DNA of 35,794 nt, taken from the IMG/VR virus record IMGVR_UViG_3300021230_000018, positions 1 to 35,794 of that record; one strand, given 5' to 3'. The notes under the pieces were generated by a model. That model saw only the letters and a program-made list of their open reading frames with translations. It was not told where the DNA came from and made no database searches. Shown here piece by piece: positions 5,804 to 34,522 of the stretch. Numbering within the stretch: the stretch's first letter is position 1; every line of letters starts with the position of its first letter. Position numbers and translations under genes: made by a program. This DNA comes from a virus.

Positions 5804-6162
5804 GTCTCGTTTTATCTACTCCGTGCATAGGTTGTTGTGGTGACTGCCTATGCACACCTAAAGATCTTTGAAATTATATATATAGAATGGAATAGATCTT
5901 TACGATTTTCCCGTAAAGATCTCAATGGGATTCAGTCTGTTACAAAATGTAACGAACTGAAAAGTGAAAATTAAAAGATTTGACTTCAGTTGCACGATTT
6001 TTCCGTGCAACTCACACACGGTTTCAACCGTACGGTTTTACCGTATAGTTTAAACTGCAAACAGGTACTGCCGTTTTGGCAGCAACTGAACCATAGAAAC
6101 AGAAAACCCCAGACGGTGATCTGAGGTTAACAATTAATAAACACAACATAAAAGGACTATGT
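5804..6162. other. 359-bp gap upstream of BRO1 holding palindrome array 1
   Basis: No gene. It holds a 9-bp hairpin with a 15-nt loop directly after the ERF stop (GTGCATAGG 5823-5831 / CCTATGCAC 5847-5855), palindrome array 1 (5894-6090) and the BRO1 leader with the antisense RNA terminator (6105-6128). I see no clear rightward promoter for BRO1, so it may be read from the early operon. Confidence 0.7.
5894..6090 (+). repeat. palindrome array 1 (five to six units)
   Basis: Units: 5894-5922 (11-bp stem, 7-nt loop), 5939-5953 (GTTAC-AAAAT-GTAAC with an outer TTCAGT / ACTGAA stem), 5988-6012 (9-bp stem, 7-nt loop), 6018-6045 (two overlapping ACGGT palindromes) and 6068-6082 (CTGCC-GTTTT-GGCAG). 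In units two, three and five a Leu codon (ctg, ctc, ctg) begins exactly 11 nt after the palindrome centre, as inside the BRO ORFs. Reading in that phase gives T-K-C-N-E-L-K (unit two) and L-P-F-W-Q-Q-L-N (unit five). These resemble T-K-C-K-Q-L-K of BRO4 and S-P-I-W-R-Q-L-K of BRO2. Confidence 0.75.
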
Positions 6163-6168
6163 ATGTCT
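6100..6168 (-). ncRNA. sar-like antisense RNA of BRO1
   Basis: Minus-strand promoter TTGCCG (6203-6198), 17 bp, perfect TATAAT (6180-6175); predicted start near 6168. The terminator is AACCTCAGA / TCTGGGGTT (6128-6120, 6113-6105) followed by TTTTCTGTTTC. The RNA, about 69 nt, covers the BRO1 start codon and its AAGGA ribosome site. On the plus strand the stem has a C.A mismatch (6109, 6124) that is a G.U pair on the minus strand, showing which strand is structured. P22 sar RNA has the same relation to ant. Confidence 0.6.
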
Positions 6169-6936
6169 ACAAATATTATAACAAAACTATTATCATTCGG
6201 CAATAAACCAATAAGATCAGCTATGCATGAAGGCCAAGTTTACTGGTCAGTTGTAGATATATTGAAATCGGTCTTACGAGATGATCAAGATGCGAGCGAT
6301 ACACTAGTCAATATTAAAAGAAGTGAAAAGCAGATTCCGTTAATTTTACGGAAACTGAAATTGCCTGGAACAGATGGTAAAATGTACCCAACAGACTGCG
6401 CTACTGAAGAAGGCATATTTAGAATACTTCAGTCTGTAAACTCAGAAAAAGTAGAAGACTTTAAGTTATGGTTAGCTAAAGTCGGTAAAGAACGATTAGA
6501 AGAAGAGCAAAACCCACAACTTGCAGTAGATCGAGCAGTAAGAACATGGAAAAAACAAGGTAAACCTGAAGATTGGATAGCAAATCGTCTTAAAGGTATA
6601 GCGGTACGAAACACAACAACTGATACTTGGAAAGCTCATGGAATTAAAGGCGATGAGTACGCTAAACTTACAAACTCCTTACACGTTGGTGTATTTAATA
6701 AGACGGTAAAAGAGCACAAAAAAGAACTAGCTGTTACAGGTAATTTGCGTGACAATTTATCAAGAATGGAATTAATAGCATTAGAATTTGCTGAAGCCGC
6801 AGCTGAAGAACTAACAAAACACCGCAACTCACAAGGCTATAACGAAGTCAAAAAAGATGTTAAAGAAGGCAGCGCTATAGGTGCTGACGCATTAAGTAAA
6901 TATAAAAAACTCATAAACTCACAGGAAGATAAATGA
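6163..6936 (+). CDS. BRO-N/DinD-like antirepressor paralogue (BRO1)
   Basis: A 257-residue protein of the BRO-N (prophage antirepressor / DinD-like) family. The BRO-N domain spans about 10-115 (V-Y-W-S-V-V-D, 26-32; K-L-K-L-P-G-T-D-G-K-M-Y, 64-75; F-K-L-W-L-A-K-V-G, about 99-107). It is followed by the DinD-type C-terminal part (W-I-A-N-R-L, N-L-R-D-N-L-S, N-S-Q-G-Y). Such proteins bind DNA or repressors and act in lysogeny control. The start has AAAGGA; a 19-nt palindrome (TTCCGT / ACGGAA, 6335-6353) lies in the ORF, centred on the Ile61 codon. The end overlaps the next gene (ATGA). The gene is probably controlled by the antisense RNA at 6100-6168. Confidence 0.88.
   Translation: MSTNIITKLLSFGNKPIRSAMHEGQVYWSVVDILKSVLRDDQDASDTLVNIKRSEKQIPLILRKLKLPGTDGKMYPTDCATEEGIFRILQSVNSEKVEDFKLWLAKVGKERLEEEQNPQLAVDRAVRTWKKQGKPEDWIANRLKGIAVRNTTTDTWKAHGIKGDEYAKLTNSLHVGVFNKTVKEHKKELAVTGNLRDNLSRMELIALEFAEAAAEELTKHRNSQGYNEVKKDVKEGSAIGADALSKYKKLINSQEDK
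6335..6353. repeat. in-ORF palindrome of BRO1
   Basis: TTCCGT (6335-6340), 7-nt centre TAATTTT, ACGGAA (6348-6353). The centre, 6344, is the middle base of codon 61 and lies 11 nt before the ctg codon of Leu65 in K-L-K-L. Confidence 0.8.
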
Positions 6937-7217
6937 AAAAACTATTATTACCAATATTATTACTAGCATCATCTCTTAACGCAAAATTAATGTTTAGACC
7001 GGAAACTGATACATATTACTCAACTAATCTTACGCCAGATCTAAACAGCATTAAGTATGACACTCTTGCTAAGTACGCTGTAAGAATGATAGACGTTGCC
7101 TATCGTGAAGAAGTAGGGATTATTTACATAATAACTCATCTAAAAGATGTCCTTATGGCAGATGGGTCTAAAGAAGCTGATATTCTATACGATGATTTAG
7201 TTGAAGTATGGGGATAA
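6933..7217 (+). CDS. small exported protein
   Basis: A 94-residue protein with a typical signal peptide: Met-Lys-Lys, a Leu/Ile-rich core (residues 4-13) and an A-S-S-L-N-A-type cleavage region near residue 17. There is no lipobox Cys. The mature part is a charged, helical domain of about 77 residues without known motifs. The start overlaps the BRO1 stop (ATGA), so BRO1 and this gene are coupled. An exported protein joined to an antirepressor-like gene could be a small superinfection or lysogenic-conversion factor, but that is inference. Confidence 0.75.
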   Translation: MKKLLLPILLLASSLNAKLMFRPETDTYYSTNLTPDLNSIKYDTLAKYAVRMIDVAYREEVGIIYIITHLKDVLMADGSKEADILYDDLVEVWG

Positions 7218-7218
7218 A

Positions 7219-7410
7219 ATGGAATGGATTAGCGTAAAAGATAGATTACCAGACAAAAGCGAAGAGGTATTAGCGCTAGACGATGAAGGTGGAATCGATC
7301 TTGCATTTATTAGATCAGAAGACGGCGTAATTAAGTATTCACGGTGTCGTTGCTGCACTAATTTAATGTACGAATTGACACACTGGATGCCGCTGCCAGA
7401 TAAGCCATAA
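7219..7410 (+). CDS. DUF551 protein
   Basis: A 63-residue protein with the DUF551 signature: W-I-S-V-K-D-R-L-P at the start and T-H-W-M-P-L-P near the end. A C-R-C-C cluster lies near the middle (about residues 44-47). DUF551 is common in phages and has no assigned function. The frame extends upstream to a TTG at 7201, but GGGGAT before the ATG at 7219 and the conserved M-x-W start in the paralogues fix the start. It begins one base after the preceding stop and ends the BRO1 operon, followed by a terminator. Confidence 0.85.
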   Translation: MEWISVKDRLPDKSEEVLALDDEGGIDLAFIRSEDGVIKYSRCRCCTNLMYELTHWMPLPDKP

Positions 7411-7413
7411 ATA

Positions 7414-7442
7414 AGGGGACCTAATTGGGTCCCTATTTTTTT
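7414..7442 (+). terminator. terminator after the BRO1-DUF551 operon
   Basis: GGGACC (7416-7421) / GGTCCC (7428-7433) with a 6-nt loop, followed by TATTTTTTT. A standard intrinsic terminator four bases after the DUF551 stop. Confidence 0.85.
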
Positions 7443-7515
7443 GTATTTACTTGACTTTATATTATTACAAGTTATCATAGGTTGTATATCTTTGAAATAT
7501 ACGAACATTAAAAGC

Positions 7516-7625
7516 ATCTTTTCGAATTTGGAAAAGATTAAGTCGTACGGAAAAATCGTACAACTGAAACTTGAGTTACAGCCAATTTGGCTACTACTGA
7601 TACTTCCGATATTTTCGGAATTATG
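7516..7625 (+). repeat. palindrome array 2 (four units)
   Basis: Units: 7516-7538 (ATCTTTTC / GAAAAGAT, 7-nt centre), 7545-7561 (GTACG / CGTAC), 7580-7592 (AGCC-AATTT-GGCT) and 7604-7620 (TTCCGA / TCGGAA). In all four a Leu-like codon (tta, ctg, ctg, atg) begins exactly 11 nt after the centre. In that phase they read F-R-I-W-K-R-L-S-R, Y-G-K-I-V-Q-L-K-L, L-Q-P-I-W-L-L-L-I-L and S-D-I-F-G-I-M-K-L. These align with L-S-P-I-W-R-Q-L-K-L of BRO2. The third unit has nearly the same palindrome as the BRO2 ORF. Confidence 0.8.
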
Positions 7626-7628
7626 AAA

Positions 7629-7656
7629 TTGATAAAAAGTGGTTATTAAGTATAAT
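7629..7656 (+). promoter_or_regulatory. BRO2 promoter
   Basis: TTGATA (7629-7634), 16 bp, perfect TATAAT (7651-7656). Transcription would begin near 7662, at the foot of the leader hairpin, so the BRO2 mRNA starts almost exactly where the antisense RNA ends. The last unit of array 2 lies 8 bp upstream of the -35 box. Confidence 0.65.
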
Positions 7657-7657
7657 A

Positions 7658-7721
7658 ATAAAAAAGCCCCTGAATGGTTCAGAGGCTAAAACTATACAAA
7701 TCGGTAACGAGGATTTATATG
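7658..7721 (-). ncRNA. sar-like antisense RNA of BRO2
   Basis: Minus-strand promoter TTGTCG (7756-7751), 17 bp, TATGAT (7733-7728); start near 7721. Terminator: 10-bp stem AGCCTCTGAA / TTCAGGGGCT with loop CCA (7687-7665) and the run TTTTTTATTATT. The plus-strand C.A mismatch (7669, 7683) is a G.U pair on the minus strand. The RNA, about 64 nt, covers the BRO2 start codon and GAGGA ribosome site. Confidence 0.65.
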
Positions 7722-8513
7722 AATAATATCATATCACAACCTTTGTCATTCGACAATAGCGAAATTCGTAGAACAATAAATGATGGCGTTACTTATTACT
7801 CAGTAGTTGATGCAATAAGAGCTTTGAATGTTTCTGAATACCCGTCTAAATATTGGAATCAGTTAAAAGATCGCCACTTAAATCAGTTATCGCCAATTTG
7901 GCGACAACTCAAATTGCAGTCTTCAGATGGCAAAAGTTACATGACCGATGCTTCAACCAGAGAGCAATTATTTGAGATTATAACTTATATACCATCTCAA
8001 AAAGTAGCGCCTTTCAGAAAATGGCTTGCCTCTCTTGCTGAAACAGAATTCCAAAAAATGGAGTCGGGTGAAAATCCATTATGGAATAAAGTTAGAGATA
8101 AAAGCAAAAAGATTAGAAATGAACTCACTACTGATCTAATAAATCATGGAGTTGAAGGGTCTCAAATAGGAGAGATAACTAACACCTACTATAGATATGG
8201 ATTTGGCAAAACAGCTTCATCTTATAGAGAATATAAAGGCCTTAACAATCAAAATCTTAGAGATCATATGACGCCAACAGAACTTCAGATAACATCTACA
8301 ATGGAAACAATACTACCTCAAGTAATGGATAATCATAACTCGAATGGGTTCAATATGGTTAAATGTGATGCTATAGAAGTTGGAGAATTTGGTGCAAAAA
8401 TGATCAGAGAGATAGAAAGAATGACTGGACGCCCAGTTGTATCAAAAGAGAACAATCTTTCGCCTAAGAAGAAATTAGACACTAAAAAAGAAAAACAGTT
8501 AATAATCGAATAA
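7719..8513 (+). CDS. BRO-N/DinD-like antirepressor paralogue (BRO2)
   Basis: A 264-residue paralogue of BRO1 with the same two parts. BRO-N includes Y-Y-S-V-V-D (26-31), Q-L-K-L-Q-S-S-D-G-K (63-72) and F-R-K-W-L-A-S-L-A; the C-terminal part has N-L-R-D-H-M-T, N-S-N-G-F and a Lys-rich tail. The frame is open from 7674, but GAGGAT before the ATG at 7719 and alignment with BRO1 fix the start. Its in-ORF palindrome (CGCC-AATTT-GGCG, 7891-7903, with an outer AGTT / AACT pair) is centred on the Ile60 codon. It has its own promoter (7629-7656) and antisense RNA. The next gene follows 12 bp after the stop. Confidence 0.88.
   Translation: MNNIISQPLSFDNSEIRRTINDGVTYYSVVDAIRALNVSEYPSKYWNQLKDRHLNQLSPIWRQLKLQSSDGKSYMTDASTREQLFEIITYIPSQKVAPFRKWLASLAETEFQKMESGENPLWNKVRDKSKKIRNELTTDLINHGVEGSQIGEITNTYYRYGFGKTASSYREYKGLNNQNLRDHMTPTELQITSTMETILPQVMDNHNSNGFNMVKCDAIEVGEFGAKMIREIERMTGRPVVSKENNLSPKKKLDTKKEKQLIIE
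7885..7909. repeat. in-ORF palindrome of BRO2
   Basis: Core CGCC (7891-7894), AATTT, GGCG (7900-7903), with an outer AGTT (7885-7888) / AACT (7906-7909). The centre, 7897, is the middle base of codon 60, and the Leu64 codon (ctc) begins 11 nt later. Confidence 0.75.
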
Positions 8514-8525
8514 TAGGAGAAGAAG

Positions 8526-8894
8526 ATGAAATGGATAAAAGTTGGACAAGAAGAGTATTCAGAAAAATATATGGACATAATTACTATATATCCATCTGAG
8601 GGTGTCGATTATTTAGTTCTGAAAGTCGATGGAACAATGTCGGTATGCAAGGGAAGATTTAATGAGGACTACGATAACTTCCTATGGGATATAGACGAAG
8701 AAGTGTTATTTTACTCTAAGCTACCTAAAAGGCCTGCAGGCAACTCAGAGGTCTCTCTAAGAAGGAAAAATAATGCAGAAAAGAAAAGACTTAGAAAGAT
8801 AGAAAAATCAAAAGAAGGAATAACTCGATTCTGCTCTATTGACGAATTATTTCCTGGTTTTACAAAGTTTATGCAAGAGCGAGAGTCTAAATAA
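8526..8894 (+). CDS. divergent DUF551-like protein with basic C-terminus
   Basis: A 122-residue protein. The first 75 residues begin M-K-W-I-K-V and reach F-Y-S-K-L-P-K-R-P (about 62-70), the bracketing pattern of DUF551 (W-I-x-V ... H-W-M-x-L-P-x-x-P), but the central His-Trp is missing. Residues 78-100 are very rich in Arg and Lys, followed by a short hydrophobic tail. AGGAG lies upstream and the gene sits 12 bp after BRO2, in the same operon. I read it as a diverged DUF551 member with an added nucleic-acid-binding-like tail; function unknown. Confidence 0.7.
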   Translation: MKWIKVGQEEYSEKYMDIITIYPSEGVDYLVLKVDGTMSVCKGRFNEDYDNFLWDIDEEVLFYSKLPKRPAGNSEVSLRRKNNAEKKRLRKIEKSKEGITRFCSIDELFPGFTKFMQERESK

Positions 8895-8905
8895 AGGAGT
8901 AGGTC

Positions 8906-9013
8906 ATGAATGAATCACTAATTGGTCTTAGACATTATAATTTTGTAACTAAAGAACTATTTGTGTTGGTTGCCTTTGTAGGCGGCCAACCAGTATGGGA
9001 GAAGGTAGCATGA
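8906..9013 (+). CDS. very small protein (35 aa)
   Basis: A 35-codon ORF starting at an ATG preceded by GGAG with 6-nt spacing. It runs from Met-Asn-Glu-Ser to Glu-Lys-Val-Ala and has a short hydrophobic middle (L-F-V-L-V-A-F-V). Its stop overlaps the ATG of the next small gene (ATGA), a typical coupled arrangement. I do not recognise it. Confidence 0.55.
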   Translation: MNESLIGLRHYNFVTKELFVLVAFVGGQPVWEKVA

Positions 9014-9105
9014 ACGAAGCTACAATAATAACAATGGTTGCGTTTATCTTTCTTTACAATTATTTCTCTGCGAAAGAAAAGGATGAGTCTGATGAGCTGG
9101 ATTAG
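9010..9105 (+). CDS. very small membrane protein (31 aa)
   Basis: A 31-codon ORF overlapping the preceding stop (ATGA) and the start of the next DUF551 gene. It has a single hydrophobic segment (about residues 5-20) followed by an acidic and basic tail (K-E-K-D-E-S-D-E), so it looks like a one-pass membrane peptide. AAGGTAG lies upstream. No homologue recognised. Confidence 0.55.
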   Translation: MNEATIITMVAFIFLYNYFSAKEKDESDELD

Positions 9106-9307
9106 CGTAAATGATAGATTGCCTGATGGTTTTCATACAGTTATTGTATGGGTAAACAATGCGTCTAAATTTTATAAAAAGGGTACCACTTTTGCATTTT
9201 TGTTTGAAGGAAAAGAATGGGTAATGCTAGAAGAGGGTAAATTCACAAAACCACAAATAAGTCACTGGATGGAACTACCGAAAGGGCCTACTGATGAACT
9301 GGATTAG
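9092..9307 (+). CDS. DUF551 protein
   Basis: A 71-residue DUF551 member: M-S-W-I-S-V-N-D-R-L-P at the start and S-H-W-M-E-L-P-K-G-P near the end. Three ATG codons are possible (9038, 9083, 9092). The last has AAGGAT about 8 nt upstream and gives the M-x-W start shared by the paralogues. The end overlaps the next DUF551 gene by 14 bp. Function unknown. Confidence 0.82.
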   Translation: MSWISVNDRLPDGFHTVIVWVNNASKFYKKGTTFAFLFEGKEWVMLEEGKFTKPQISHWMELPKGPTDELD

Positions 9308-9509
9308 TGTTAAAGATGGATTGCCAAAAGAAGACGAAGATTTTGTCATTCGTTATAAGTCTGTTTCTTTCTCTGGCAATGATCATTTTGATATAGGTTA
9401 TATAAAAAACAATGAAATTGATCGAAAAGGGTGTGATTGTTGCACCGATAGTATTAGTGAGATTACCCACTGGATGCCATTACCGAAGGGCCCCGATGAA
9501 AATAAATAA
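9294..9509 (+). CDS. DUF551 protein
   Basis: A 71-residue DUF551 member: M-N-W-I-S-V-K-D-G-L-P at the start, then C-D-C-C in the middle, and T-H-W-M-P-L-P-K-G-P near the end. It is closest in pattern to the DUF551 protein at 7219-7410, which has C-R-C-C at the equivalent place, so these two share a possible metal site that the 9092-9307 copy lacks. It overlaps both neighbours and is clearly co-translated with them. Confidence 0.85.
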   Translation: MNWISVKDGLPKEDEDFVIRYKSVSFSGNDHFDIGYIKNNEIDRKGCDCCTDSISEITHWMPLPKGPDENK

Positions 9510-9783
9510 AGTAGAAATGAATAGACCGCCTGAGAATACCAAGATAACTATCAACAACGAAGTATGCAAATGCATTAAACACAACAATAAAACATGGATT
9601 AATATAAAAGATTTAACACTAAAAGGTCGTGATGAAGTGTATAACTTAATTAGGCATGCACCTGGACTATTAGATCAAATCATGGAGCTATCTCTTTATG
9701 GTCAAGGAGATTACTACGTTGAGGCAACAACTGGATTAGAGTCGTTGAAAAAAGCTATAGACAACAATAACTTTTGGTATTAA
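9496..9783 (+). CDS. hypothetical protein
   Basis: A 95-residue protein starting at the ATG at 9496 with AAGGG upstream; an internal ATG at 9517 is also possible. It overlaps the DUF551 gene by 14 bp. There are two Cys (E-V-C-K-C) near residue 30 but no complete metal motif. A segment W-I-N-I-K-D-L ... V-Y-N-L-I-R-H-A resembles I-E-D-I ... Y-K-L-I-R-D-A in the protein at 11345-11635, so the two may be distant relatives. Function unknown. Confidence 0.7.
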   Translation: MKINKVEMNRPPENTKITINNEVCKCIKHNNKTWINIKDLTLKGRDEVYNLIRHAPGLLDQIMELSLYGQGDYYVEATTGLESLKKAIDNNNFWY

Positions 9784-9785
9784 TC

Positions 9786-9947
9786 ATGGAAAAATGTTTA
9801 CAATGCAAGAAAGATTACACGTATCATCTTACAGATGCTAAAACTGGCCTTAGAGATTATTATTGCAAGCAGTGCTTTTATACTTACTTAAGAACTAGAG
9901 AGACTGCTAATATGCCTGAATTTATTAAAAAAATGGTAACAAAGTAA
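9786..9947 (+). CDS. small zinc-finger-like protein (53 aa)
   Basis: A 53-residue protein with C4-x-x-C7 and C27-x-x-C30, a zinc-ribbon spacing with about 19 residues between the pairs. It is basic. The ATG at 9786 follows the previous stop by two bases, and the stop lies immediately before the BRO3 leader hairpin. It is the last gene of the BRO2 operon. Function unknown; nucleic-acid binding is plausible for a basic zinc ribbon. Confidence 0.65.
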   Translation: MEKCLQCKKDYTYHLTDAKTGLRDYYCKQCFYTYLRTRETANMPEFIKKMVTK

Positions 9948-9998
9948 AAGACTCCCAGCCTTCTTTACGACTGAGAGCCAAAAATGAAAGGATATTTA
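9942..9998 (-). ncRNA. sar-like antisense RNA of BRO3
   Basis: Minus-strand promoter TTGTTA (10033-10028), 17 bp, TATGAT (10010-10005); start near 9998. Terminator: GGCTCTCAG / CTGGGAGTC (9979-9971, 9958-9950) with a 12-nt loop, then TTTTACTTTG. Two plus-strand mismatches (A.C and C.A) are both G.U pairs on the minus strand. The RNA, about 57 nt, covers the BRO3 ribosome site. Confidence 0.55.
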
Positions 9999-10316
9999 AT
10001 GAGTATCATAACAAAAGAATTATTATCTAACAATAACATACGCAGAGCAAATTACAACGGAGTCGTATGTTATTCTTTGGTCGATGTATTTAATGAGTTA
10101 TACACAATAACTGTTCCTAATGTGTATATAAACAATCTAAAGTCTAAAGATTTTACATTACAGTCTAAGATCCATCGGTTAAAGATATTATGTAAAGACA
10201 ATAAGTATAGAATGTCGTATTGTGCGCCTGAAGAAACCATAGAGTTGATCATGAATATGGTGCCGGATAAGTTGCTAAAGTCATATTCAGTTGAATTGCC
10301 GGAAGATGAATGGTGA
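9999..10316 (+). CDS. truncated BRO-N paralogue (BRO3)
   Basis: A 105-residue protein matching only the first part of BRO1, BRO2 and BRO4: V-C-Y-S-L-V-D-V, then R-L-K-I-L-C-K-D-N-K in place of L-K-L-P-x-x-D-G-K, and E-E-T-I-E-L-I-M. It stops before the W-L-A segment and lacks the whole C-terminal half. Its last codons run into an inverted repeat (10288-10297 / 10316-10325) at the border of palindrome array 3. It has no palindrome at the homologous codon. AAAGGAT before the ATG at 9999 fixes the start rather than 9984. It is either a degraded paralogue or a short regulator able to pair with the full-length proteins. Confidence 0.75.
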   Translation: MSIITKELLSNNNIRRANYNGVVCYSLVDVFNELYTITVPNVYINNLKSKDFTLQSKIHRLKILCKDNKYRMSYCAPEETIELIMNMVPDKLLKSYSVELPEDEW

Positions 10317-10411
10317 ATTCAACTGTCCGGTTTTACCGGACGTTTCACCATGTTAGTACAGTTGCATACATTTCCTATGCAACTGAATTGGTTACATTTT
10401 GTAACATGCTA
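10288..10411 (+). repeat. palindrome array 3 (three units plus inverted repeat)
   Basis: An inverted repeat CAGTTGAATT (10288-10297) / AATTCAACTG (10316-10325) is followed by GTCCGG-TTTTA-CCGGAC (10325-10341), a 10-bp stem with 7-nt loop (10359-10385), and GTTAC-ATTTT-GTAAC (10391-10405). In the second and third units the codons ctg and cta begin 11 nt after the centre, giving L-H-T-F-P-M-Q-L-N and V-T-F-C-N-M-L-R-L in the BRO phase. The third palindrome is the exact reverse complement of 5939-5953 in array 1. Confidence 0.75.
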
Positions 10412-10520
10412 AGATTGTTAAATTAATATCAAAAATAGTGTATAATAATATCAAATAAAAAGACTCTTAGTGCGTGGCTAAGAGTCCAAACAATATAAAC
10501 CCCAAACGAAAGGTATTCAT
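10317..10520. other. 204-bp gap upstream of BRO4
   Basis: Non-coding; contains most of palindrome array 3, a candidate BRO4 promoter and the antisense terminator hairpin. No small ORF of note. Confidence 0.7.
10418..10446 (+). promoter_or_regulatory. candidate BRO4 promoter
   Basis: A perfect TATAAT (10441-10446) within TATAATAATA, the same ten bases as at the BRO2 promoter. The -35 is weak: TTAAAT at 17 bp, or TTGTTA at 20 bp. Transcription would start near 10453, at the foot of the leader hairpin, as at BRO2. Confidence 0.5.
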
Positions 10521-10523
10521 ATG
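10454..10523 (-). ncRNA. sar-like antisense RNA of BRO4
   Basis: Terminator: perfect 9-bp stem GACTCTTAG / CTAAGAGTC with a 7-nt loop (10486-10462), then TTTTTATTTGA on the minus strand. The promoter at the homologous place is weaker: TTGTCT (10558-10553), 17 bp, TAAGCT (10535-10530). An alternative is TTGTTT with TATGAA slightly downstream. The RNA would be about 65-70 nt and cover the BRO4 start codon and AAAGG site. Confidence 0.5.
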
Positions 10524-11342
10524 AATACAAGCTTATCACAAACAATATCATTAGACAATATTAATATCAGATCTGCGGTTCATGAAGGCGTTAGATATTA
10601 TTCTGTAGTCGATTGTGTGGAGTATTTAGTAAAAGATGAAACAACTAACGCAAAAGTCTATTGGTCTTCTACTAAAGCAAGATGCAAAAATAAAGGGATC
10701 GAGTTGTTTACAAAATGTAAACAACTGAAACTACCTAGTTCAGACGGAAAAATGTACCTGACTGACTGTGCAACTCAAGAAAATATATTCTATATAGTTC
10801 AATACATCCCATCAAAGAAATCTGACAAGTTCAAAGAAGCTTTCGCCAAGATTGTTAACGAGCGTATCGAAGAAGAAAAGAATCCTGAATTAGCTATAAA
10901 GCGTGGGATGGACTCTTATCGTAAGAGAGGCATGAGTGAGAAATGGATTAAAACTAGAATTGAAACAATAAACTCTAGAAATCATCTTACCGATACATTG
11001 AAAGATCATGGTATAAAAGGTAATGAATACGCTAAAACAACAAATATACTTTATGAAAGAACTTTTGATTTAAATGCTCAAGAACTTAGAGATGCTAAAG
11101 GTCTTGATGATAAAGACAGGTTGCGTGACAACATGAGCAAGGATGAGCTTACTGTTGTAAATATATCAGAGAACTTACTTGAAGGTATTATAAAAAAGAA
11201 CAATTCACAAGGGTTTAAAGAAATAAAGGAAGATGCAAAAACTGCAGGGGATTACGGAGCACGAATCCGAGAAATCATGGAAGAAGCGCTTGGGAAGACA
11301 ATAATCACTAAAAAACAAGATTTAATTGAAGAGGGTGAATAG
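10521..11342 (+). CDS. BRO-N/DinD-like antirepressor paralogue (BRO4)
   Basis: A 273-residue, full-length paralogue: Y-Y-S-V-V-D (26-31), Q-L-K-L-P-S-S-D-G-K-M-Y (68-79), then S-E-K-W-I-K-T-R, D-R-L-R-D-N-M-S and N-S-Q-G-F. It contains the longest perfect in-ORF palindrome of the set (10-bp stems, 10702-10726), centred on codon 65. That sequence is very close to array units at 5939-5953 and 10391-10405. CGAAAGG precedes the ATG. A candidate promoter lies at 10418-10446 and an antisense RNA covers the start. The next gene follows two bases after the stop region. Confidence 0.88.
   Translation: MNTSLSQTISLDNINIRSAVHEGVRYYSVVDCVEYLVKDETTNAKVYWSSTKARCKNKGIELFTKCKQLKLPSSDGKMYLTDCATQENIFYIVQYIPSKKSDKFKEAFAKIVNERIEEEKNPELAIKRGMDSYRKRGMSEKWIKTRIETINSRNHLTDTLKDHGIKGNEYAKTTNILYERTFDLNAQELRDAKGLDDKDRLRDNMSKDELTVVNISENLLEGIIKKNNSQGFKEIKEDAKTAGDYGARIREIMEEALGKTIITKKQDLIEEGE
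10702..10726. repeat. in-ORF palindrome of BRO4
   Basis: AGTTGTTTAC (10702-10711), AAAAT, GTAAACAACT (10717-10726): a perfect 10-bp stem with a 5-nt centre. The centre, 10714, is the middle base of codon 65, and the Leu69 codon (ctg) starts at 10725, 11 nt on. Confidence 0.85.
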
Positions 11343-32728: not shown

Positions 32729-34522
32729 TCATGGAAATGAATTATTTAATGGAAATGAATTATTAGTTCTAAAGAACTCAGGTATATTACTCTGAGATCC
32801 ATGCATAGATTCGTTCCTAAGACGCGCTACATCTTCTTTAGTCATTCCGTCTTTTACTTTAGGCAATGATACACACATATAACGTACTGCATCTGCGCAA
32901 TGGCTAAATTCATTATGCAATGGCGTCTGCTTGTACACCTTTTTCTTTGAGTCAAATTCCTGCCTATAATTCTCTAGTGATTTAATAACACGATCACATT
33001 TGTTCTTATCGATAAACATCTTAGGTAGGTTAGACCTTACGGCTTCTATACCGTCTTCTATAGACAATCTGTTACTAATCGTAAAGTCTATACCCAGATG
33101 CATTGCCTTCTCAAGCCTTGTCATACCGGATCCAAACTCTTTTACCGCTATATCATGAGGAGCAATGTGTTTTCCATAAAGGTAAGGCTTATCTTTTACT
33201 ATTTTAACATAATGTTCAAGCCCCTCTTTGGACTTTTCATAGTAATCTATAATGCGTATTGATGTCCCAATAGACTGAAAGAATATAATTGAAGTGCTAT
33301 CTCTGACACCAATATCCCAAGCTGTATGAACAGGGAATGCTGGTTCCCATGCAACATAATCAATTCTGTTTTCCAGGCGCATATTGTCTATGTATTTAGC
33401 ATAATAGCTGCCTTCTACGCCCATATCGAAGCTGCAATAATACTCTTGCATGGCAAGGTCTTCAGAGATCTCTCCTGATGCGATTTCTTTTTTGATATCA
33501 TCAACAGATATATGCTTTGTATCTTCTACCGTCTTTATATATGAGAACCATGATTGCGGATTATCTTGAGCTATCTTAAATAGTTCCCAAAACGAGTTTC
33601 TTCCACGAGGTGTAGATTGTATAAAGCACCATCCCCCATTAGCGGTTAGAATAGGCCTGACAAACTGATAAGCTCTTGGGTCTGTAAGCGCAAACTCAGA
33701 GAAGATTACCCCCATTGGGTTAGTCCCAACAAGTGTATTATCATAGTTATCAGAGCCAATAATTTGCAGAACTGAACCATTAACAAAACGTATACGCATT
33801 TGTTGTTCATTTCTCGTTTCCACTAATTCTTTTGGTATATAATCTAATATTCTCATCCCATCATTTTGTATCGCATCCCAAATGATTCTTCGCCCCTGAG
33901 AGAAAGTGGGGAACACGTAAAATACGGTTCCCACCTTCTTTAGGCATTGGCGTATAGCTATATTAAATGCTGTTATATCTTTGCCTGAGTTGTGAACTAC
34001 TAGTCCATTTGCAATAAAGTTGTGATGAGTTTCGGTTTCAATATCAAAAAGTTCTTCATCTATATGGTCGCTATACGTGAATGACGTACACTCAAACGCT
34101 AACAGTGACCCTGTGTACACTATTAGCATATCGTTATGAGCAATATCCTTTAAAGGTTTCCATGTTATAGGCGCATCATGTTCGTTTATTGTTGCAAATA
34201 CATGATCCAGCGAAGATACTAAGGGAAGGTCGCCTCTGGTATTAACCTTAACTGTTTTCTTTATACCAGTACTCCATTTGTTTTTCACCGTGTCTTCTAC
34301 AAAAGCGCTACCATTAAATGAAAGTATCTTATCCCCAACTTCAATATCCCTGAGAAGTTTAAATGACCCATCATACATAGTTATATGAGTATCGCCCGAT
34401 AAACAACGTCTAGGCATCACTGCAATGATCCGCCTGAATCCGTCTTTCTCAAGGGCGTTTATTAAAGGAATTTGATACTCTCGTGGTTGAAACTTATTGA
34501 GATGTATTACTTCCTCTTTCAT
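32729..34522 (-). CDS. large terminase subunit with mini-intein
   Basis: A 597-residue precursor. After removal of residues 40-178 (intein) the extein is 458 residues, a usual length. The spliced Walker A is M-P-R-R-S-G-K-D. The Walker B-like segment is G-V-I-F-S-E-F-A (271-278), and the coupling motif is Q-S-T-P-R-G-R-N-S (302-310). The nuclease half contains A-W-D-I-G-V-R-D (401-408) and H-C-A-D-A-V-R-Y near residue 550. It is the packaging ATPase/nuclease. AAGGA precedes the ATG, and it overlaps the upstream gene by 29 bp. The C-terminus ends in a tandem 18-bp duplication (N-N-S-F-P-L-N-N-S-F-P). Confidence 0.9.
   Translation of the reverse strand: MKEEVIHLNKFQPREYQIPLINALEKDGFRRIIAVMPRRCLSGDTHITMYDGSFKLLRDIEVGDKILSFNGSAFVEDTVKNKWSTGIKKTVKVNTRGDLPLVSSLDHVFATINEHDAPITWKPLKDIAHNDMLIVYTGSLLAFECTSFTYSDHIDEELFDIETETHHNFIANGLVVHNSGKDITAFNIAIRQCLKKVGTVFYVFPTFSQGRRIIWDAIQNDGMRILDYIPKELVETRNEQQMRIRFVNGSVLQIIGSDNYDNTLVGTNPMGVIFSEFALTDPRAYQFVRPILTANGGWCFIQSTPRGRNSFWELFKIAQDNPQSWFSYIKTVEDTKHISVDDIKKEIASGEISEDLAMQEYYCSFDMGVEGSYYAKYIDNMRLENRIDYVAWEPAFPVHTAWDIGVRDSTSIIFFQSIGTSIRIIDYYEKSKEGLEHYVKIVKDKPYLYGKHIAPHDIAVKEFGSGMTRLEKAMHLGIDFTISNRLSIEDGIEAVRSNLPKMFIDKNKCDRVIKSLENYRQEFDSKKKVYKQTPLHNEFSHCADAVRYMCVSLPKVKDGMTKEDVARLRNESMHGSQSNIPEFFRTNNSFPLNNSFP
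33989..34405 (-). other. mini-intein inside the terminase Walker A motif
   Basis: Residues 40-178 of the terminase ORF. Block A starts at C40 (C-L-S-G-D-T-H-I), with G-D-K-I-L-S-F; block B is around S-S-L-D-H-V-F-A (103-110); block F is L-F-D-I-E-T-E-T-H-H-N-F (159-170); block G is V-V-H-N (175-178), with Ser179 as the +1 residue. At 139 residues there is no room for a homing endonuclease. The insertion splits the ATP-binding loop between Arg-Arg and Ser-Gly-Lys, so packaging requires splicing. Confidence 0.9.

Follow-up and report, generated by a model that had tools for sequence, protein, structure and literature searches.

What is a palindrome doing inside the coding sequence of a DNA-binding domain? 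The question is raised by the window analysed here, the entire IMG/VR virus record IMGVR_UViG_3300021230_000018 (35,794 bases), which carries four paralogous BRO genes at 5.8-11.4 kb: BRO1, BRO2, a truncated BRO3 and BRO4. An earlier note on this DNA had described palindromes within BRO1, BRO2 and BRO4 and about ten more in three non-coding arrays. It took the arrays to be homologous to a coding segment, either as silent cassettes or because each protein's recognition segment is encoded by its own DNA site. Because the half-sites of the palindrome covary with the recognition helix and wing of the encoded protein, and helix residues predict the site, the protein's own operator almost certainly lies within its own gene.

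Palindromes within the BRO genes

BRO1 (6163..6936, plus strand) encodes a Bro-N domain followed by a DinD/DdrC-like C-terminal domain, and BRO2 (7719..8513) and BRO4 (10521..11342), both on the plus strand, belong to the same family. BRO1 matches the Pfam Bro-N model (PF02498) with E=4e-6 and 27.8 bits, above the curated cut-off of 25.6; BRO2 falls slightly below it (24.4 bits), and BRO4 has no Pfam match, yet is 42% identical to BRO1. All three are members of the PADLOC family PDC-S13 (E=3e-69, 7e-55 and 1e-73 for BRO1, BRO2 and BRO4, respectively; a relative, L016, scores E=1e-124) and of phrog_15286, whose function is annotated as unknown. The AlphaFold model of BRO4 (pLDDT 90) has a winged-helix fold, with a recognition helix at residues 44-57 and wing strands at 67-72 and 78-84. 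The helix is encoded on the plus strand by positions 10650..10691 in BRO4 and by 7842..7880 in BRO2 (PSKYWNQLKDRHL), and presumably, from alignment to the BRO4 model, by 6286..6324 in BRO1 (QDASDTLVNIKRS), the least certain of the three assignments.

The palindromes noted earlier are present in all three open reading frames (ORFs): at 6331-6357 in BRO1 (centre 6344, 8/10 pairs), at 7885-7909 in BRO2 (centre 7897, 9/10 pairs) and at 10702-10726 in BRO4 (centre 10714, 10/10 pairs). We presume them to be operators. Each centre lies precisely 11 nt ahead of the L codon of an L-K-L motif, and the BRO1 palindrome is orthologous in position to the sites of homologues. BRO3 (9999..10316, plus strand; E=6e-7 to BRO4 across 11-101) lacks the C-terminal domain and retains only 2/10 pairs at the expected centre; its decayed palindrome is a natural negative control. 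Taken alone, the window is only modestly enriched, with 14 palindromes scoring at least 9 compared to 2-10 in shuffled sequences.

Conservation of the palindrome as DNA

A genome scan yielded 80 diverse relatives from many phyla, at ~35-42% identity, and almost every one of them has a palindrome centred at this position. The main family set comprised 228 non-redundant genes from phages, bacteria and archaea, after removal by sequence identity of viral loci duplicating one contig; these genes share ancestry and are not a random sample. A palindrome of 21-33 bp lies between the recognition-helix and wing codons in 225 of the 228. In 208 it has at least 8/10 pairs with its centre at exactly -11 from the L of L-K-[LM]; elsewhere in the gene a score of 8 is reached at only 0.07% of positions and a score of 9 at 0.008%. 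Over 83 genes the mean at the site is 9.54/10 pairs, compared to a mean of 2.5 and a maximum of 4.7 at other positions. The expectation that this codon would be palindromic and hypervariable across homologues, and more often palindromic than the rest of the gene, is thus borne out.

Selection acts on the DNA and not on the peptide. When codons were replaced by synonymous ones according to each gene's own usage, 6.3/10 pairs were expected where 9.5 are observed (p<=0.01 in 54 of 83 genes). The arms are highly variable (163 distinct 29-mers) yet complementary: at offset 5 the two sides pair in every one of the 163 (CG, GC, TA or AT), where independence of the sides would give 53. In a further 17 genes, which form part of a diverged subfamily, the palindrome is out of register with the protein alignment by 1 or 7 nt and is therefore read in another frame; identical DNA (GACAAATTGTC) translates as V-T-N-C-H in one subfamily and as G-Q-I-V in the other. 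The frame-shifted reading and the synonymous-codon control together rule out selection at the level of the peptide.

Palindromes also occur at the equivalent place in other genes of the superfamily. Among the 40 DinD genes analysed, of which E. coli dinD is one, an even-length palindrome (of the GACCATTTTGnnGACGTCnnCAAAATGGTC type) sits at one place directly after the helix; 68% of the genes have at least 8/10 pairs there, and no more than 3% do at the positions ranked next. Among classic Bro-N antirepressor genes, 50 of 70 have a palindrome of at least 8/10 pairs between helix and wing, compared to 7% of control windows. Persistence of the palindrome in variable arms, in other frames and across these families argues for selection on DNA. 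E. coli dinD (L338 6761-7585) also matches the PADLOC model 'Specificity_I' along the greater part of the gene (E=3e-114); the probable reason is that DinD occurs in fusion with type I specificity subunits or is encoded alongside them.

Covariation of the recognition helix and wing with the half-site

We computed helix-site covariation within the main family, numbering residues by family-model columns (17-53). When proteins were paired at equal overall identity, changes in the half-site tracked columns 17, 19, 20, 23, 24, 27 and 28, which form one face of the 44-57 helix in the BRO4 model. With a tree built from neither helix nor site and 89 phylogenetically disjoint pairs, R/K28 was associated with offset 3 (p=4e-15), K24 with offset 5 (p=3e-11), R19 with offset 8 (p=4e-12) and K20 with the half-site (p=1.6e-16), column 20 going with offsets 5-6; the wing residue Y/R53 was associated with offset 11 (p=3e-19). 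The map from residue to base is base-specific and collinear. At offset 3, C occurs with R28 in 136 of 137 genes and A with K28 in 38 of 41; at offset 5, T occurs with V24 in all 45 genes and C with D24 in 32 of 34.

The seven helix residues predict the half-site at 5.68/6 bases, 79% of half-sites being exact, when the donor genes share less than 60% identity elsewhere; flanking columns give 3.35/6 and random choice 2.55/6. Judging by these associations, specificity is set by the recognition helix encoded just upstream of the palindrome and one wing residue encoded just downstream, not by the residues that the palindrome itself encodes. The earlier idea of a recognition segment encoded by its own DNA site therefore holds in the self-referring link between gene and site and fails in the residues it assigned to recognition. 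The simplest reading of the covariation is that a Bro-N dimer binds the in-ORF palindrome.

Exchange of helix and operator as one cassette

Several pairs of genes that are 94-99% identical in protein outside one block differ within it in both helix and site (L056/L072, L009/L035, L033/L006 and L049/L068); the L056 type has the site TGTCCCA and the L072 type TGTCCGA. In the clearest pairs, DNA identity is ~90% on both flanks but falls to about 45-65% within the 90 bp immediately preceding the L codon. Recogniser and presumed target travel together as one ~90-bp cassette.

In a group of Bacteroidales loci (L005, L006, L009, L021, L023, L024 and L035) the gene is solitary and ~1 kb long, its two ends marked by a terminal inverted repeat of 12 bp, ATACTGATTTGC...GCAAATCAGTAT, beyond which the DNA is unrelated. 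This arrangement would make it a mobile unit of one gene that lacks a transposase. We asked whether such repeats typify the family as a whole, but they are confined to this Bacteroidales group.

Genomic targets and non-coding arrays

We searched 14 genomes with a site pattern of 12 specified bases. The in-ORF site was the sole match in seven of them; additional matches in the others belonged to a second copy of the gene, lay just upstream of the same gene, or were isolated and as frequent as matches to the control pattern. As the in-ORF site is often the only close match in the genome, the main target of the protein would be its own gene. In a minority of loci, 1-3 sites precede the gene by about 35-160 bp, and these usually differ in specificity from the site inside the gene. 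In L056, L071, L045, L248 and L262, such family palindromes of a foreign specificity class lie in the promoter region, about 235-360 nt before the L codon, which suggests cross-regulation between Bro alleles.

The three arrays in the window hold twelve palindromic units, slightly more than the earlier count. Array 1 (5894-6088), 5' of BRO1, has five operator-like palindromes (5894-5922, 5936-5958, 5988-6012, 6026-6048 and 6064-6088). Array 2 (7516-7624), 5' of BRO2, has four (7516-7538, 7541-7568, 7574-7598 and 7600-7624) and adjoins a promoter-like site at 7629-7656 on the latter's 5' side; array 3 (10325-10408), 5' of BRO4, has three (10325-10341, 10359-10385 and 10386-10408). The centres are A/T-rich, not A/T-only as first described (5894-5922 has ATTTTCC). 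A leucine codon 11 nt after the centre had been taken as a further common feature; it is one in the three ORFs, whereas in the arrays that codon is simply part of an outer arm shared by the units, CAGTTG/CAACTG.

Units of this phage do recur in the ORFs of other genomes, as the earlier note had anticipated. Unit 5988-6012 differs from the in-ORF site of L027 (ELHEKIVQL) at one of 14 compared bases, 7541-7568 from that of L157 (YEKIVQL) at one base and 5936-5958 from that of L258 at one of 14. Most of the twelve units are within three mismatches in 14 of such sites, compared to 7% of random palindromes (unit 10386-10408 was excluded from this count). The resemblance had been read as homology of the arrays to a coding segment; instead, the coding segment itself appears to be an operator, conserved as DNA across reading frames. 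The array units are then best viewed as additional operators, many of specificities found in the ORFs of other genomes, and not as silent coding cassettes. As array operators often carry foreign Bro specificities, the phage BRO genes that have arrays are probably cross-regulated by other Bro proteins.

A model for Bro-N genes and its alternatives

We are confident, on the strength of these sequence comparisons, in the core of a model in which a Bro-N gene holds the dyad-symmetric operator of its own protein, with helix and site co-diversifying. A dimeric Bro-N protein, a winged helix-turn-helix protein, would bind the 21-33 bp operator between the helix and wing codons of its own gene, with offsets 3-8 of the half-site read by the recognition helix and offset 11 by the wing. 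Helix and operator would diversify together and be exchanged between alleles as a ~90-bp unit. Binding at the in-ORF site may block transcription through the gene, forming a portable feedback element with no need of a promoter of its own; we consider this roadblock role evenly balanced between right and wrong. With a self-contained operator, the gene could enter any operon and impose negative feedback, and the arrays 5' of the phage BRO genes would be further operators, many of them for foreign Bro proteins.

The bacterial genes are mostly solitary and often co-directional with a neighbour within 150 bp (121 of 189 upstream, 107 of 191 downstream). The neighbours are varied, with type I/III restriction-modification and CRISPR-Cas genes recurring, and roadblock feedback fits solitary copies within such operons. 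One Bro-N gene (L348 7932-8828) lies between cas4 and cas1 in a type I-B CRISPR-Cas operon of an Arcobacter plasmid.

Several points weigh against the model. In most loci we found no further operator copy at the promoter, which leaves ordinary repression there unsupported. Several array units are far from every BRO site in the window, some matching no resident Bro protein, and the helix region of BRO1 is aberrant. The palindrome of classic Bro-N genes is less uniform than that of the main family; the covariation comes from the main family, while DinD and classic Bro-N genes contribute the position of the palindrome only. We found no structure of a Bro-N-DNA complex, and physical binding, dimer geometry and roadblock are parts of the model that we infer.

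The alternatives differ in what would read the palindrome, or why. Another protein, such as a nuclease, an integrase or a host factor, might recognise it, the helix covarying only through linkage in a recombining block. Helix and site do adjoin and swap together. Linkage nevertheless fails to explain the covariation, because linker columns 30 and 31, equally variable and nearer to the site, are weakly associated with it at most, while the covarying residues are restricted to one helix face and one wing residue in collinear order; moreover, the site can be predicted between genes less than 60% identical elsewhere. We regard such a reader as very unlikely. An RNA-level role, with the palindrome forming an mRNA hairpin for translational control, is scarcely credible. 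The sites could fold as hairpins and the arrays could sit in transcribed leaders, but leftover arm mismatches of the A.C and G.U types are equally frequent (33 each), leaving no wobble signature of an RNA helix; the covarying partners of the bases are a DNA-recognition helix and a wing, some of the array units point the opposite way, and an Rfam search for an RNA element found nothing. Least credible of all is the silent-cassette reservoir of the earlier note, in which array units are non-coding copies swapped into the ORF to create new specificities. It was right that specificity changes by cassette exchange, and array units do resemble in-ORF palindromes of other genomes. The exchanged cassette, however, is helix plus operator (~90 bp); as the array units lack the helix, in which specificity resides, they cannot be a reservoir of it, and most loci of varied specificity have no array.

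A self-recognition or immunity locus would share the self-operator core and differ in purpose. A resident Bro protein would silence incoming copies with the same operator, whether in a phage or a mobile gene, and new specificities would escape, so that helix-operator pairs diversify by negative frequency-dependent selection, like phage immunity groups. The fast co-diversification with cassette swaps, the frequent status of the gene as its protein's sole genomic target, the listing of the family as a phage-defence candidate (PDC-S13) and the foreign-specificity sites in the phage arrays and several bacterial promoters all speak for this. Mutual exclusion of same-site copies within one genome, by contrast, left no sign: of 32 co-resident pairs of copies, 3 have the inner half-site in common, which is not below the 5.5% of random pairs. 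We consider the immunity purpose possible and somewhat doubtful. Returning to the self-operator model, its diversification suggests that selection also favours orthogonality, or alleles that evade silencing by a resident one.

Other features of the BRO region

A minus-strand terminator lies 20-45 nt ahead of the start of each BRO gene, and within their first codons BRO1-3 each carry a promoter-like site of the extended -10 type on the minus strand. Predicted antisense elements on the minus strand span 6203-6105, 7756-7665 and 10033-9950 at BRO1-3, and a further member of the terminator set lies at 10487-10461 (minus strand). BRO1-3 are thus predicted to have antisense RNAs of ~60-70 nt covering the ribosome-binding site, which bring to mind the ant/sar pair of phage P22. 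Three small DUF551-like genes (7201-7410, 9038-9307 and 9294-9509) are interspersed among the BRO genes and were apparently co-duplicated with them. Elsewhere in the window, a putative large terminase gene on the minus strand (32729-34522), so labelled from gene order and sequence, contains an intein splicing domain (Intein_splicing match).

Relation to known systems and implications

The genes in the window share their N-terminal domain with the Bro-N proteins (phage antirepressors and BRO proteins), for which the open-access papers searched describe no operator within the coding region; among them we found none linking Bro-N to an operator in its own ORF, subscription papers lying outside the search. 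In the C-terminal domain and overall fold they resemble E. coli DinD and Deinococcus DdrC (Foldseek E=7e-9 for DdrC). They match the NCBIfam models of these two proteins weakly, far below the equivalog cut-offs: 21.9 bits for BRO4 and 27.5 for L072 compared to 242 for DinD (NF008573), and 22-24 bits compared to 150 for DdrC (NF033622). For PDC-S13, the PADLOC library lists the status of single-gene phage-defence candidate and no mechanism.

Operators inside coding sequences that are read by dimeric repressors are familiar from autoregulated systems with intragenic operators, namely lac O2 in lacZ and the gal internal operator. In those cases the operator is part of a gene under regulation, whereas the Bro-N operator would lie in the codons of the regulator's own DNA-binding domain, throughout a superfamily, and be swapped with the helix. 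Exchange of specificity modules on a conserved backbone is likewise known from phage immunity regions and from domain swapping in type I restriction-modification specificity subunits; unlike in those systems, the Bro-N recogniser and the recognised site share the same ~90 bp. We know of no other family, and met none in the open-access papers searched, in which the target of a DNA-binding domain is embedded in its own codons, at a fixed place, over a wide evolutionary range and co-swapped with the helix. Intragenic operators and autoregulation are not new; a superfamily-wide operator in a regulator's own DNA-binding codons, exchanged with the helix and diversifying along with it, did not turn up in the open-access papers searched.

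Since the target stands written in every gene, the superfamily amounts to a naturally tabulated code of protein-DNA recognition. DNA-binding specificity would be readable from the gene sequence alone, to the accuracy of the half-site predictions above, and the many natural helix-operator pairs could serve for learning the code and as orthogonal regulators for synthetic biology. More tentatively, Bro-N genes may be self-recognition loci that silence copies of their own allele, with key and lock in the same ~90 bp. If so, the Bro-N alleles of phages, bacteria and archaea would diversify in the manner of mating-type or immunity alleles, and the phage operator arrays would sense the foreign Bro alleles present in the cell. 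For these very common and unexplained genes (PDC-S13, DinD and phage BRO), there is now a concrete question: what they gain from binding their own gene.

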